A stretch of 44,020 nt of DNA from Methanopyri archaeon (GTDB taxonomy: Archaea; JAADCQ01; Methanopyri; Methanopyrales; Methanopyraceae). The position numbers were made by a program, and so were the translations under genes. Positions within the stretch are counted from its first letter, which is position 1, and each line of letters begins with the position of its first letter. The notes beneath the pieces were generated by a model that saw nothing but the letters and a program-made list of their open reading frames with translations, made no database searches and had not been told where the DNA came from. Of the stretch, positions 6,286 through 38,294 are shown piece by piece. The stretch is from the NCBI GenBank assembly GCA_013154335.1, contig JAADCQ010000080.1:1-44020 (forward strand), in the 5' to 3' direction.

Positions 6286-6786
6286 TTACTCCTCTTCTTC
6301 CTCGAATTTCTCGAATAGATCGTCCCACTTGCCTTCATCGATCTCTTTCTGCACTTCCTTAGGATCCTTACCTTCCACGGTGACTCCCATGCTTCCGCAG
6401 GTTCCTAGGACCTCTTTAGTGGCTGTCTTTAAGTCGTATGACAGCATATCATCGAACTTCATTTTAGCGATTTTAATGGCCTGCTCCATGGATAGATCTC
6501 CAACGACTTCATGCCTAGGCTCGTGAGCTCCTTTCTCTATTCCTAACTCTGACTTTATTATAGCTGATGTCGGTGGAGTACCTACTTTCACCTCGAATTC
6601 TCCGGTGTCGGTATCTACTATTATCTTGACTGGGACCTCCATGCCCTCGAAGTCTTTCGTCTTCCTGTTTATCTCCTCGACGACTTCTTGGATGTTCACG
6701 CCCAGGGGACCCAGGGCGGGGCCGAGGGGTGGACCCGGGTCCGCCTTGCCTCCCTCGACCAGGACCTCGACCTCCTCTTTCGGCAT
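6286..6786 (-). CDS. rpl11: Large-subunit ribosomal protein L11
   Basis: L11 (166 residues) binds the GTPase-associated region of 23S rRNA at the stalk base. The N-terminal signature [20 protein letters not shown] is intact, and the C-terminal domain has the archaeal [20 protein letters not shown] motif. The ATG at 6786 lies a few bases after a purine-rich stretch. Codon use changes inside the gene: the first third is GC-rich like its neighbours, while roughly 6290-6650 drops to about 38-52% G+C per 60-base line, with codons rich in A/T third positions. The reading frame and protein family are unaffected. Confidence 0.97.
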
Positions 6787-32124: not shown

Positions 32125-33089
32125 CTGACGCCCCCCTCGCTCTCCCAATCCAGCTCCGTTTTAATGCCGAGACGCTCCCTCACCCTCTCATGAGCCTCCA
32201 ACACGCTCCTGGTCCCCCTCACCGCATCGCACAGCTCGCTATCCTCGGCCACCTTGGCGGGGTCGAAGTAGAAGGTGCACGTGGACGCGGGCTCCAACAC
32301 GACCCTCCTGTGACCGCCCCTTATCTCGAAAGGACCCAGCTCCCCCTCCGAGGCTGCCATCACGGGCAGGGCACTGGCCTCCGTCTCGACGTCCCTGAGT
32401 ATCTCACCCAGGAACTCGACGTCCGACCTCGTGAGGCCGATGGCCCCCAGATAACCACCCTTCGACGCTATCTCGGCGAACCTCTCCCTCAACTCCTCCA
32501 GGGACAACTCCCCGTCAGAACCCCACCCGAAGACCCCCATCACGGTATCGTTCAACTCGGCGAGCGAAGCCGTCATTATGGAGTCGGCCAGCGGTGACTC
32601 CACGCCGGGCTCGTTCCCCTTGGCCAGGGCGTCACCCCCCACGTCCACACCGACGAGCACGTCCAAACCGAACTCCTCGAACATCGCCTCGAGGGCCTCC
32701 ACGGTGCCCTCGAACCCTCCCCCGACGTCCAGCAACACCACCTCAACGTCCTCGAACCCCAACCTCCTCAACGCCCTCCTGACCCGTGATTCCGCGAACG
32801 GCTTCCCCCTCCTCGGCCTGGCCTCCCCCCGCAGCACCCCGACTCTCTCGTGGATCCAAACGACATCGCCCACTATTTCATCCCTCGACCTCGGGCCCGG
32901 CTCCGGGTCCACGACGGACCTCTCCCACGTCAGACCCCCCACAACCAGCACGTCCGGATCCAGCTCATCCCTCACCCACCTGAGCGTGTGACACGCTCCC
33001 ACCACGTCGCCCCCTCCACCGATACCCAGGACGGCGATAGCGTCCGGGTCGCTCACACCCAAGACGTCGGCGAGGTACAACGGTGCCAC
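32121..33089 (-). CDS. DUF1152 family protein
   Basis: A 322-residue protein matching DUF1152, found mainly in archaea: AVLGIGGGGDVVGACHT near the N-terminus is a glycine-rich nucleotide-type loop, then VGGLTWERSVVDPEPGPRS, DVGVD-type motifs (VGVDVGGDALA) and a late TCTFYFDPAKVA. Function is unknown; the loop suggests nucleotide or cofactor binding. GTG 33089 is the longest reasonable start; TTG at 33080 (MYLADVLG) has the better-placed Shine-Dalgarno GAGGGGTGG. It is divergent from the 33106 gene with only 16 bases between. Confidence 0.8.
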   Translation of the reverse strand: MAPLYLADVLGVSDPDAIAVLGIGGGGDVVGACHTLRWVRDELDPDVLVVGGLTWERSVVDPEPGPRSRDEIVGDVVWIHERVGVLRGEARPRRGKPFAESRVRRALRRLGFEDVEVVLLDVGGGFEGTVEALEAMFEEFGLDVLVGVDVGGDALAKGNEPGVESPLADSIMTASLAELNDTVMGVFGWGSDGELSLEELRERFAEIASKGGYLGAIGLTRSDVEFLGEILRDVETEASALPVMAASEGELGPFEIRGGHRRVVLEPASTCTFYFDPAKVAEDSELCDAVRGTRSVLEAHERVRERLGIKTELDWESEGGVR

Positions 33090-33105
33090 CCCTCGGGGGT
33101 GCGAA

Positions 33106-34143
33106 GTGTTGACGATCTTCGTGCTGTCGTTCGATCTCTTCGGGAGGTGCCCTAAGGCCTACATCGAGCACGTGAAATCGATAGAGGAGTACGTGACGGT
33201 GTTCACGGATTACGTCACGTACGCGGCCGGTGAGGACTACATCGGCAAACTGGCGGACGTGAAGGTTCCGACGGTATCCGACGCCCCGCTCCCCTACGTA
33301 CCCGAGATAGACGCGAGGGACCAACTCGATCTGGTCGAAGGGAACGACTTACTCCGGGCACCTCATCTCGCCATGGACGCCGCCACGTTGCTCGGTCTGG
33401 ACGAGTCTTTGGGGATAGAGGTGGACTCCTCGGGGTACTGCAAGAAGGGCGTCACCATGGTCAAGGACGTGCTCGAGGTACCGGTGATGTCCGACGTGCT
33501 CGATATTCCCAACCTGAAGAAGATCTTCAAGAAGATCCACAAGTACAACGTCGTGATACTACGGGGAGGCTCCGAGATCAGCGTCAAGCGATCCGTCACG
33601 ATGATAGACAAGGTCGTGGAGGCCGTAGGGGAAGAGAACGTCGTACCGATGAGGGAGTTCGTGGAGGAGTACCTCAGCGACGACATGGTCACCACGGGTA
33701 GGGTCAAGTTCCTACCCGATGGGATCATGACGGAGGCCGAGGAAGCCGTGGTGAGGGCGGTATCCCAGGTTTGGGCGCTTAACTCCGAGTACGTGAGACA
33801 AACGGACGATGACAAACTACTCATCGCCCACCTGTCGACGGAATCCGTCAGGAACTTGGATAGGCTGGCTCCCTTCTGCGCTAAGATGATAGAAGAGTTC
33901 GGTAGAGAGTACGAAAAGGACTTGGAAATGGTTGTTAAATCTAAGTATTTTGTTAAGCCATTGAAAAAGATACGGAAACGACTAAAATCTAAATTGGATA
34001 AGTTAGAGGTCGACTTAGATGCACCACCTGAGGAAAAAGTAAAGGTTAATAGACAATACAAATTAATTAAAAAAATACTGAAAAAGAAAGAAGATCCGTT
34101 GAAGGCAATATATTACGTTGGGAAGTTTGTTGAGGAGGTGTAG
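33106..34143 (+). CDS. Unrecognised protein heading the pilus locus, Lys-rich C-terminus
   Basis: A 345-residue protein I cannot place in a family. It begins MLTIFVLSFDLFGRCPKAYIEHVKS, has no clear signal peptide, and has an alpha/beta middle (VVILRGGSEISVKRSVTMIDKVVEAVG). The last 75 residues are strongly basic (FVKPLKKIRKRLKSKLDKL, YKLIKKILKKKEDPLKA). That basic part coincides with an abrupt fall to about 30% G+C from around 33925, while the first part is GC-rich. The stop at 34143 is 1-4 bases before the prepilin peptidase start, so the two genes are probably coupled and functionally linked. Confidence 0.75.
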   Translation: MLTIFVLSFDLFGRCPKAYIEHVKSIEEYVTVFTDYVTYAAGEDYIGKLADVKVPTVSDAPLPYVPEIDARDQLDLVEGNDLLRAPHLAMDAATLLGLDESLGIEVDSSGYCKKGVTMVKDVLEVPVMSDVLDIPNLKKIFKKIHKYNVVILRGGSEISVKRSVTMIDKVVEAVGEENVVPMREFVEEYLSDDMVTTGRVKFLPDGIMTEAEEAVVRAVSQVWALNSEYVRQTDDDKLLIAHLSTESVRNLDRLAPFCAKMIEEFGREYEKDLEMVVKSKYFVKPLKKIRKRLKSKLDKLEVDLDAPPEEKVKVNRQYKLIKKILKKKEDPLKAIYYVGKFVEEV

Positions 34144-34147
34144 TTTG

Positions 34148-35170
34148 GTGAATATGGATCTTATATCATTCTTAATAGGAGTACCATTTTTGATTTATGC
34201 CAGCTACACAGACATAAAGGAAGGGATAATACCCAACAAGTTGAACGGTGCCCTCGCGCTGGCGGCGATCGCCATCCTGGCGGCTCAAACGCTGGTCAAC
34301 GGTGGCCACGCGGGTCTCATGGGGCTCGCGGCCGCCGCCATCGGTTTCGCCGCGGCGTTCGGCCTGTACGTCATAGGGGGCATGGGTGGCGGGGACGTGA
34401 AGATGATCCCATCGCTGGCCGTCCTCCTGGGTCACAGGCTGTACCCGTGGTCGGGGATCGACCTGATAATCAACTCGATAATATGCTACGGACCGTTCGC
34501 CCTCGTTTACGCGCTGGCCCTGGCCCTGAAAAGGGATCCGAAGGGAACCGCCTCGATATTGGCGGAGAAGACCGCGAAATCCCTGGCTTGTATCTCCGTG
34601 GCGGCCACCGTGGGCGGTTACTTCAGGGAGATCGGGGGAGGGTACGCGGCCTTCGGGGCGTCGTTGGCGGCGCTCCTCGCGGTTTCCCTAGCGTTGAAGG
34701 GTCGAGGACCGAGGATCGCCGTGCCAGTCGCAACGGTCGGCACAGTGGCATCGTTCCTAGCGGGACCGGGGGTGGGTTTAACGGCGGTTGGGACGTCGAT
34801 CGTTCTGGCTCTCGTGGCCGCGGCCGTGGAGGGGGCGAGGAAGGAGGTTACCGTGGACGAGTTGAGGCCCGGAGACGTGCCGGCGGAGGTCGTGGTTGAG
34901 ATGGACGGGGAGATCGTCAAGGTGGGCAGGTTCAAGGGGTCCCTGTTGATCGCGTCCGGGAGGGCGAAACCGGTGGTTGTGCCCACCGGTGAAGGTTTAA
35001 CCGAGGAGGACATTAAGACCCTGAAGGAGTTAGGAATCGACACGATTAGAGTGGGCACAACCACGCCCTTCGCTCCCGCGATAGCTGTTTCTTACGTCGT
35101 AACCTTCGTGGTGGGGGGTTCGTTGCCGTCTTGGTTTTCCTCGGAATTCCCTCGGTTATTAGGGGGGTGA
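34148..35170 (+). CDS. Archaeal type IV prepilin (class III signal) peptidase
   Basis: A 340-residue A24-family aspartic peptidase that cleaves prepilin leaders at the membrane. The two catalytic Asp are visible: YTDIKEGIIPN (D22) and the GxGD motif in IGGMGGGDVKMIPSL (D83). Several membrane spans follow, then a soluble C-terminal domain (about 230-310) and a final hydrophobic stretch. The start is GTG 34148 or TTG 34145, just after GAGGAGGTG (34131-34139); ATG 34154 is also possible. The first 80 bases belong to an AT-rich patch, then composition jumps to GC-rich. It overlaps the first pilin by GTGA. EppA-like by context, though not proved. Confidence 0.88.
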   Translation: MNMDLISFLIGVPFLIYASYTDIKEGIIPNKLNGALALAAIAILAAQTLVNGGHAGLMGLAAAAIGFAAAFGLYVIGGMGGGDVKMIPSLAVLLGHRLYPWSGIDLIINSIICYGPFALVYALALALKRDPKGTASILAEKTAKSLACISVAATVGGYFREIGGGYAAFGASLAALLAVSLALKGRGPRIAVPVATVGTVASFLAGPGVGLTAVGTSIVLALVAAAVEGARKEVTVDELRPGDVPAEVVVEMDGEIVKVGRFKGSLLIASGRAKPVVVPTGEGLTEEDIKTLKELGIDTIRVGTTTPFAPAIAVSYVVTFVVGGSLPSWFSSEFPRLLGG

Positions 35171-35361
35171 GAGCGGGACGCAGGGGTCAGGGTGGTGTCG
35201 AGATGCTCCTCATCATCGCCGTCGTGATCGCGTTCGTGGCCGTGGTGGCCACGGCCTACCTCGCGGGGGTCAGGAGCCTTGGTTCCAGCGCGTCGGGGCT
35301 CGGGGAAAAGGCCGCGGCCGCGCTCCCTACCTTCGCTCGTACGGTCGCTGGCGGCCTCTGA
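35167..35361 (+). CDS. Small type IV pilin 1
   Basis: A 64-residue prepilin: leader MRAGRRG, then mature QGGVE with the conserved Glu at +5, followed by the hydrophobic helix MLLIIAVVIAFVAVVATAYLAGV. This is the standard euryarchaeal class III signal. The mature pilin would be about 57 residues. The GTG start overlaps the TGA of the peptidase gene (GTGA), so the pilin is coupled to the enzyme that should process it. Confidence 0.88.
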   Translation: MRAGRRGQGGVEMLLIIAVVIAFVAVVATAYLAGVRSLGSSASGLGEKAAAALPTFARTVAGGL

Positions 35362-35545
35362 ATCGGGCCAGGAGAACGTCGAACTCATCCTCATGATTAT
35401 GGTGGTGATAGGTCTCGTGTTCGTGGCCGCCTACTTCTCCCTCCAGGGAACGTCATCAGGGGGTAAGACCGTTGAGGCCCTCGGGAGTGACGAATCGAAC
35501 AAGATCGTGTCCGTTTGCAGTTCGGTCGCGGGATACTGGTATTAA
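35279..35545 (+). CDS. Small type IV pilin 2 (start uncertain)
   Basis: The mature part QENVELILMIMVVIGLVFVAAYF has the pilin signature (Gly before Gln, Glu at +5) and ends SVCSSVAGYWY, about 58 residues. The start is a puzzle: the only canonical codon upstream is TTG 35279, which gives an Arg/Pro-rich 30-residue leader and an 83-base overlap with pilin 1. A CTG at 35348 would give a seven-residue leader MAASESG, the same length as that of pilin 1. The coordinates here use the TTG. Confidence 0.75.
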   Translation: MVPARRGSGKRPRPRSLPSLVRSLAASESGQENVELILMIMVVIGLVFVAAYFSLQGTSSGGKTVEALGSDESNKIVSVCSSVAGYWY

Positions 35546-35741
35546 TCGGGCCGCCGTCTTACGCCCGGGCAGGAGGGGTCAGACCTCGATGGAGGTGGCC
35601 CTTCTGATCCTCGCGGTCCTCGTGATAGCAGCCGTGGCCGCCATAAGCGCCAGCGGGTTCAACCGTACCGTCACCTCGGGTGTAGGGAGCGCTATCGACG
35701 TTATAACCAGCGAAACCATAGCCAGGGCCGGTCAAACATGA
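35487..35741 (+). CDS. Small type IV pilin 3 (start uncertain)
   Basis: Mature part QTSMEVALLILAVLVIAAVAAISASGF follows PGRRG, a textbook class III signal with Glu at +5; the mature pilin is about 53 residues. Canonical starts (GTG 35487 or TTG 35472) require a leader of about 31-36 residues overlapping pilin 2 by some 60-75 bases. A shorter option is ATT 35541, overlapping the pilin 2 stop as ATTAA and giving a 15-residue leader. The 3' end overlaps the next ATG as ATGA. Confidence 0.75.
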   Translation: MTNRTRSCPFAVRSRDTGINRAAVLRPGRRGQTSMEVALLILAVLVIAAVAAISASGFNRTVTSGVGSAIDVITSETIARAGQT

Positions 35742-36656: not shown

Positions 36657-38294
36657 ATGCGCTTGATCCGAGACGAAAGAGGTTTCATATTCACACCGTT
36701 GGCGGTGTTAGCCTTAGCACTTTTGATTTTAGCCGCTTCTTACCTATCCTTCACCGGAAGGCAAAGCTTTTTCTTAATAAAAGCTGAAAGAATAAAAGGA
36801 ATAATAAATCTAGCGGCCTCATCATTTACATCCAAGAACCTAAGCCTATACGCGTACAAGGGAGTAGTAGACTTTATAAATGGTATCAACCCACCTTACG
36901 ATGGATATAGGTACGGGACAATAACAAAATATTCAGTAGGCTCCGGAGGCTCGTTCACGGACTCTTCCCCACCTACGACATCGGTAGCAGTATCATCATT
37001 ACACGGGGATCCAGCATCCTTAGACAACGTGGAAGAGTCCTTGAGATATTACATTGACAGGTCGTTCTTATCATTAGCACAATCGATCCACTCGCAAACC
37101 TCCTCCATGTATAAGGGTATAGATGTTTGGGTAGTACCCGTGGTGTACAACGGAACCGAGAAAGTGTCCGTATCCCCGAGCGGCACCGTCACGGTATCGA
37201 ATTACTCGCCCTCCAACGTGGCCGCGGGTAAGATCCCGATCAAGCAGGGCGCCGACCCATTCACCCTGGAGGTTTCGACGCTGGTGACCCTACGGGTCTA
37301 CGCCTCACCGACCACGATCCCGGGAGCCGCCACCGCGGCCCTCATAACGGTGTCCTGGACGGAAACCGTGCCCGTGGACCTCTCGGGCATGTACTACTCC
37401 ACGTCCGGTGTGAAACCGATCGCCGACCCGCTTCCCATATGGACGTACTACGTTTCCAAGGATAAGTACGGAGGAGCGCCCCTGAAGTTCATCCCAATGC
37501 TCTCGATAGGTGCCGCTAGGTACTCGGTGGGATACGGTGGAGGCATAGTTACGTCCACCGGAACCCAGTACATCACACAGTCGGATTTCGCCAGGTTCTT
37601 CGACGCGTTCCTAAGGTTCGATTACCTGGGCGAGGCCAACAGCACGGATTCCACCGACGTCACGTCCTTGGGTAAGGTGTTGGTGTCCATCGACGGGATG
37701 CTACCGTGGAACGATAAGACGGTCCAATCCACCGTGGGTTCTAGCCCACTGCAGTCCTCCCCCGTGGTGATCCCCTACTTCCCGGAAAGACACGGCGGTC
37801 CCGGCTTCCTCCTGAGGGCGGCCGGTGCCCTCTACTACGACCCGGACGGCAACTGGTCGGTCTCCTACGACGGTGTCCACACGTTCCCTGTCAAAGTCGA
37901 GGACTCCGGGTTCGAAACGTACATCACCAAGCTACCCTCGGACTACGTGTCAGGAACCTTCAACCCCGGCCCCGGATGGGCAGTTTGGATGCAACTCCTG
38001 GCCCAGTATTCCTCGTCCCTCAAATCGGTCATCGACGGTAAGACGCTGTCGTCGTACTCGGATCAGTACGGCACGCCGTTACACTACTTCTACAGGTACG
38101 GTTTCAACTCCGACGACCCGCTGGTCAAGGAGATACAGACTATACTCGGGTACAGGCTCCTCTCCCTGGCGACGGACACGAACCCGAAGGGTTTCGCGCT
38201 CCCCGGGGTGGAGGTGTACTACTGGTTCCTCGATCCGGGCACGAACACGTCGCTTGTCCTTAAGAACGGGAGTGTGATAAGGGTGTGGCCCTAG
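36657..38294 (+). CDS. Large exported protein with pilin-like N-terminus (545 residues)
   Basis: The N-terminus MRLIRDERG then FIFTPLAVLALALLILAASYL has the charge and hydrophobic layout of a pseudopilin but lacks the acidic +5 residue. The rest is Ser/Thr/Tyr/Pro-rich, beta-type and presumably external. No catalytic motif is recognised. The ATG is 4 bases after the preceding stop. The first 480 bases (36660-37140) are AT-rich (about 35-52% G+C per 60-base line) and use A/T-ending codons, while the rest is GC-rich. The 3' end overlaps the convergent small gene by 4 bases. Confidence 0.78.
   Translation: MRLIRDERGFIFTPLAVLALALLILAASYLSFTGRQSFFLIKAERIKGIINLAASSFTSKNLSLYAYKGVVDFINGINPPYDGYRYGTITKYSVGSGGSFTDSSPPTTSVAVSSLHGDPASLDNVEESLRYYIDRSFLSLAQSIHSQTSSMYKGIDVWVVPVVYNGTEKVSVSPSGTVTVSNYSPSNVAAGKIPIKQGADPFTLEVSTLVTLRVYASPTTIPGAATAALITVSWTETVPVDLSGMYYSTSGVKPIADPLPIWTYYVSKDKYGGAPLKFIPMLSIGAARYSVGYGGGIVTSTGTQYITQSDFARFFDAFLRFDYLGEANSTDSTDVTSLGKVLVSIDGMLPWNDKTVQSTVGSSPLQSSPVVIPYFPERHGGPGFLLRAAGALYYDPDGNWSVSYDGVHTFPVKVEDSGFETYITKLPSDYVSGTFNPGPGWAVWMQLLAQYSSSLKSVIDGKTLSSYSDQYGTPLHYFYRYGFNSDDPLVKEIQTILGYRLLSLATDTNPKGFALPGVEVYYWFLDPGTNTSLVLKNGSVIRVWP

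Follow-up and report, generated by a model that had tools for sequence, protein, structure and literature searches.

In naturally competent bacteria, as exemplified by Helicobacter pylori and by penA of Neisseria, mosaic genes arise by homologous import. The AT-rich tracts of Methanopyrus described here resemble these mosaics in lying within genes, in spanning a few hundred bases putatively contributed by a relative and in keeping the reading frame. They differ from them in occurring in an archaeon, at about 75 places per Mb, in being recognised by base composition and in that no donor was identified. Another process, kataegis or APOBEC-type deaminase mutation, produces short local clusters of GC-to-AT change. 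The Methanopyrus tracts are also short local GC-to-AT clusters but, unlike those of kataegis, they show altered transversions and an altered codon dialect, both strands are hit and the protein is conserved. In archaea, short-patch, discontinuous recombination tracts have been reviewed for Sulfolobus acidocaldarius (PMC4471258). The resemblance to the Methanopyrus case lies in short gene-conversion tracts that give patchy mosaics in a hyperthermophilic archaeon (PMC4471258). However, the S. acidocaldarius donor was near-identical DNA carrying silent markers in transformation experiments (PMC4471258), whereas the Methanopyrus tracts are natural, genome-wide composition scars whose putative donor would differ at about a quarter of the bases. 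As for Methanopyrus itself, the comparison of SNP6 and KOL6 with AV19 describes large islands and makes no use of the word recombination (PMC5504354). A search of the literature found no description of AT-rich tracts in Methanopyrus.

The window, that is, the whole stretch of 44,020 nt that was analysed, has a G+C content of 62%. It belongs to a genome (G000) available as 93 contigs, 1.37 Mb in all, which was compared with four relatives (G001 to G004), all of one genus. G001 is a single-contig genome of 1,694,969 bases. The features first considered are the following.

33882 to 34245, no strand assigned: focal AT-rich tract, identical interval by ML changepoint and by HMM
33106 to 34143, forward strand: protein of 345 aa with no assigned function, its last quarter inside the focal tract
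34148 to 35170, forward strand: EppA-like prepilin peptidase, its first 33 codons or so inside the focal tract

The focal tract has 33.2% G+C, and its limits are those of the best two-level changepoint searched in 33000-35200 (log-likelihood gain of 49.8). They agree to about 45 bp with the AT-rich patch that a preliminary description had placed at 33925-34230. The contrast with the surroundings that it had reported is recovered in 300-bp windows, where G+C goes from about 0.56-0.63 down to 0.32 (33900-34199) and back to 0.62 (34200-34499). The 240-bp window with the lowest G+C, 30.8%, is at 33938-34177 (z = -7 relative to the window as a whole). Within the 345-aa gene, the tract starts near codon 260; it then crosses the stop/start junction and ends near codon 33 of the prepilin peptidase. 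The first frame ends with TAG at 34141-34143 and the second starts with GTG at 34148 or ATG at 34154. Thus, the tract takes in the 3′ part of the first gene and the 5′ part of the second, and both reading frames are uninterrupted, as had been described. Whole-gene horizontal transfer, already dismissed on these grounds, would give boundaries coinciding with genes; here the tract limits do not match genes, the focal tract straddling two of them and 21 other tracts being intragenic.

Three other Methanopyrus genomes have an ortholog of the 345-aa protein at the corresponding position, with 37-38% identity, and no Pfam or NCBIfam family was matched above cut-off. The prepilin peptidase, 38-41% identical to its relatives, carries the Pfam domains Peptidase_A24 (PF01478, 4e-13) and archaeal PepC C-terminal (PF06819, 2.7e-8); its top NCBIfam match is the EppA model, at a score far under the model cut-off. 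These pilus genes evolve too fast for separate trees of the patch and of its flanks to be resolved, and the focal patch by itself, being short as well, does not yield an informative tree. No tRNA was found in the window.

The location of the patch in a pilus locus, to which the preliminary description had drawn attention, is correct, but it reflects no peculiarity of that locus. A census with a two-state HMM, run on 81 pieces of the G000 assembly (994 kb), gave 75 AT-rich tracts with a median length of 285 bp (quartiles 190-439 bp), making up 2.6% of the bases and lying mostly within long open reading frames. Twenty-one of them are entirely within one gene having an ortholog. The genes concerned include those of the CO dehydrogenase alpha subunit, SelB, glutamyl-tRNA synthetase, Elp3 and phosphosulfolactate synthase. 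The Elp3 tract lies at L091:11656-12366 and the CdhA tract at L064:5878-6356. When 603 real proteins were recoded by resampling synonymous codons according to genome-typical usage, the HMM found 0, 0, 0 and 1 tracts, whereas the real genes have 40; amino-acid content is therefore not the cause. A test for clustering found none, the tracts being scattered over the genome, which favours many separate events and argues against the import of several tracts from one donor molecule. Two further tracts are found in the window.

36676 to 37128, no strand assigned: second AT-rich tract, 42% G+C, found by the HMM
36657 to 38294, forward strand: pilus-locus open reading frame of 545 aa holding the second tract, with an ortholog in G001 and in G004
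6286 to 6627, no strand assigned: third AT-rich tract, 45% G+C, found by the HMM, codons 54-166 of ribosomal protein L11
6286 to 6786, reverse strand: gene of ribosomal protein L11, which is 88-93% identical in amino acids to its counterpart in each of the four relatives

In the 545-aa gene, third-position G+C (GC3) is 0.44 in the tract and 0.80 elsewhere, the aligned codons of G001 giving 0.85 and 0.81, respectively. In the L11 gene, GC3 is 0.81 in codons 1-53 and 0.49 in codons 54-166, where amino-acid identity is 91%.

Comparison with the relatives shows that the tracts are lineage-specific. The overall GC3 of G000 drops to 0.44 in tracts from 0.83. Genes of G000 were then paired with their orthologs, taken from 0.3 Mb of G004 and from the initial 0.8 Mb of G001. 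In those with 25 codons or more both inside and outside the tract, GC3 of G000 is 0.45 in the tract and 0.80 outside. At the codons aligned to the same tracts and flanks, it is 0.73 and 0.73 in G001 and 0.89 and 0.89 in G004. Hence, these two genomes have no dip of GC3 at these positions. The preliminary description had held recent segmental replacement to be unlikely if other strains carried the same patch and if residues inside and outside gave the same tree; the focal patch is absent from the three relatives with a match to the locus (all but G003), so that the comparison does not speak against replacement. At tract edges, GC3 changes from about 0.78 to 0.48 over 5-10 codons, a step sharpened somewhat by the placement of the edges by the HMM. 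Amino-acid identity inside and outside tracts is 0.62 and 0.65 with G001 and 0.60 and 0.64 with G004, differences that are not significant.

The tracts are also written in another codon dialect. Isoleucines conserved with a relative are encoded by ATA at a frequency of 0.67 in tracts and 0.40 outside (p = 6e-13), while conserved glycines move toward GGA and arginines toward AGA. The shifts of isoleucine to ATA and of glycine to GGA require transversions, beyond what transitions alone can give. Residue changes private to G000 involve AT-directed transversions 2.1 times and AT-directed transitions 1.6 times as often in tracts as outside. At fourfold sites, the purine/pyrimidine agreement with G001 is lower in tracts (0.46 vs 0.54), while no drop is seen with G004, a point against an imported origin.

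Two origins had been put forward in the preliminary description, replacement of a DNA segment by recombination with an AT-rich relative and a local mutational process. The first is favoured here: the tracts were probably produced by homologous replacement of short segments, the donor being a Methanopyrus-like lineage that is AT-richer and unsampled. At the focal locus, about 360 bp of resident GC-rich sequence would have been replaced by the homologous stretch of such a lineage. As to the route, which like the donor lineage we infer, the DNA of the relative would enter the cell and pair with the chromosome at conserved stretches, and short-patch gene conversion would then fix a few hundred bases. 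Because the exchange would be homologous, the frame would be preserved, and only the codon dialect and a few residues would be altered. Import accounts together for a composition distinct from that of the flanks, the disregard of gene boundaries, the intact frames, the codon dialect, the absence of the tracts at the same positions of G001 and G004 and a step in divergence. The donor half of the proposal found no match: nucleotide and protein searches at class and phylum level, which covered five genomes for the phylum, all Methanopyrus, did not find an AT-rich donor, scans of genome contigs recovered no Methanopyrus relative, and one well-conserved tract gave nucleotide matches of no more than 69%.

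Since G000 is without a close relative, its tracts cannot be set beside an unreplaced sister copy. The other genomes allow this to some extent. The first 0.8 Mb of G001 hold their own set of 50 AT-rich tracts, longer than those of G000 (median 498 bp), for instance at 489755-491072, 465074-465676 and 783256-783651. In contrast, G004 has four weak tracts in 0.3 Mb, and a strong low-GC tail, present in G000 and G001, is nearly absent from it. Nucleotide identity between G001 and G002 is about 0.82 around the G001 pilus genes. For one tract found only in G001 (668670-669097), a step in divergence is seen exactly over the tract, where identity to G002 is 0.72, as compared with 0.80-0.87 in the flanks. 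The G+C of G002 across this interval, 0.51-0.53, is near that of its surroundings, with no comparable dip. A converse but weaker case occurs at 660514-660963 in G001 coordinates, where G002 has the lower G+C and identity is 0.71-0.72. The comparison of tract divergence with a near relative covers this G001-only tract and this weaker G002-only dip. On the other hand, G001 and G002 both have an AT-rich L11 gene, and the L11 tract is shared by them at normal identity (0.93-0.95), so that it predates the split of these two genomes.

Local mutation is an unlikely alternative. It would suppose that stretches of 200-500 bp underwent clustered or sustained GC-to-AT change, for instance through deamination of exposed single strands or error-prone gap filling, selection maintaining the protein. 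The excess of differences in the G001-only tract would fit this idea if taken alone: most of it is made up of GC-to-AT transitions, 33 C>T and 32 G>A, so that both strands are concerned. Transitions reach 0.201 per site vs 0.116-0.132 in the surroundings, whereas transversions, at 0.077 vs 0.063-0.067, differ little. Within the gene carrying it, transversions occur at the same rate in the tract (24/363 sites) and outside (41/606). Tracts are also somewhat richer in residue changes found only in G000 (odds ratio 1.5, p = 0.0009), an increase that a mutational process would give just as import would. However, a process restricted to transitions cannot change isoleucine ATC to ATA or yield purine-ending glycine codons, nor can it double AT-directed transversions or quadruple A<->T transversions, which number 12 in the G001-only tract where the surrounding sequence predicts about 2.9 (hand-computed from the same table). 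A single burst of mutation would harm the protein, yet its identity is almost unchanged. A slow AT-directed mutational process is weakened and retains a small probability.

Polarisation by outgroups bears on the same question. In seven genes, G000 has the outgroup residue at 35 of 66 sites in tracts and 55 of 139 outside (p = 0.07), figures that may be inflated in tracts by the AT-rich organisms among the outgroups. Derived residues are therefore not in excess in tracts, which argues that these are not accumulated new mutations; accelerated mutation predicts the opposite. In L11, by visual inspection, four of the nine residues separating the G000 tract from G001 are those of the outgroup (5col), against all four other Methanopyrus. 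One site beyond the tract also matches the outgroup against the other Methanopyrus. Because this site behaves like those of the tract, G000 is probably a deep branch in any case.

Clustered deaminase mutation, raised by the presence in Methanopyrus of the tRNA C-to-U editing enzyme CDAT8, was dropped in view of the transversions and of the codon dialect. Such mutation, of the kataegis type, would leave transitions only, on one strand per cluster; the tracts show transversions and a codon dialect, and both strands are affected in the G001-only tract.

A rewriting of about 300 bp of Methanopyrus genes into an AT-rich codon dialect, tract by tract and with no donor, may also be envisaged, for example by repeated error-prone resynthesis of short gaps by an AT-biased polymerase; this seems distinctly improbable. 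Slightly less credit still is given to the idea that the ancestor was AT-richer and that the tracts are relics, stretches still short of the GC-rich codon usage. Such relics would be in keeping with the longer tracts of G001 (60% G+C) and their near absence from G004 (68%), with the AT-rich L11 gene of G001 and G002 and with the leaning of G000 tract residues toward outgroup states. Yet tract positions are unshared, GC3 at the aligned codons is the same inside and outside in G001 as well as in G004, and the edges are sharp. Moreover, relics predict no local excess of divergence, whereas the G001-only tract has one.

It is very doubtful that the tracts are chimeras, pieces of a co-assembled AT-rich strain joined into a fragmented assembly. 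The 93 contigs of G000 and tract lengths of the order of paired reads would suit such an origin, as would the ends of these contigs, which are AT-rich (<47% G+C over the terminal 120 bases) in 9 cases against 3.1 expected. However, frames and synteny are intact, including in L11, and G001, a single contig, holds 50 comparable tracts of its own in 0.8 Mb, so that a purely assembly-made origin is unlikely. The AT-rich ends, such as those of L085 (3′), L047 (3′), L058 (5′) and L070 (3′), look as though AT-rich tracts had been favoured breakpoints of the assembly. Finally, selection for AT-rich sequence at tract sites, linked to translation start, chromatin or regulation, is hardly credible: the focal tract does include a start codon, but most tracts are within open frames, their positions are not conserved between genomes, and no RNA family was matched in 33400-34700.

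If homologous replacement is indeed at work, recombination in Methanopyrus would bridge sequences that differ at about 20-30% of their nucleotides, the exchanged pieces being about 300 bp long, and exchange would reach even the genes of CO dehydrogenase and of ribosomal proteins. Every tract would then be the fossil of an unsequenced AT-rich Methanopyrus-like lineage, and gene trees of the much-debated Methanopyrus lineage would blend two histories within single genes. Should the tracts have arisen without import, they would point to a local mutational process that has yet to be described.

Two other observations may be added. Directly 3′ of the prepilin peptidase, at 35279-35741, two small open reading frames of 88 and 89 aa carry GQENVEL and GQTSMEV ahead of a hydrophobic stretch, which, from their sequence, resemble archaeal class III prepilin signals. 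Elsewhere, in the gene at L080:6310-7476, similarity between G000 and G001 is 0.59 in the tract vs 0.35 outside, while that between G000 and G004 is about 0.6 throughout, which may reflect a different type of mosaic history.
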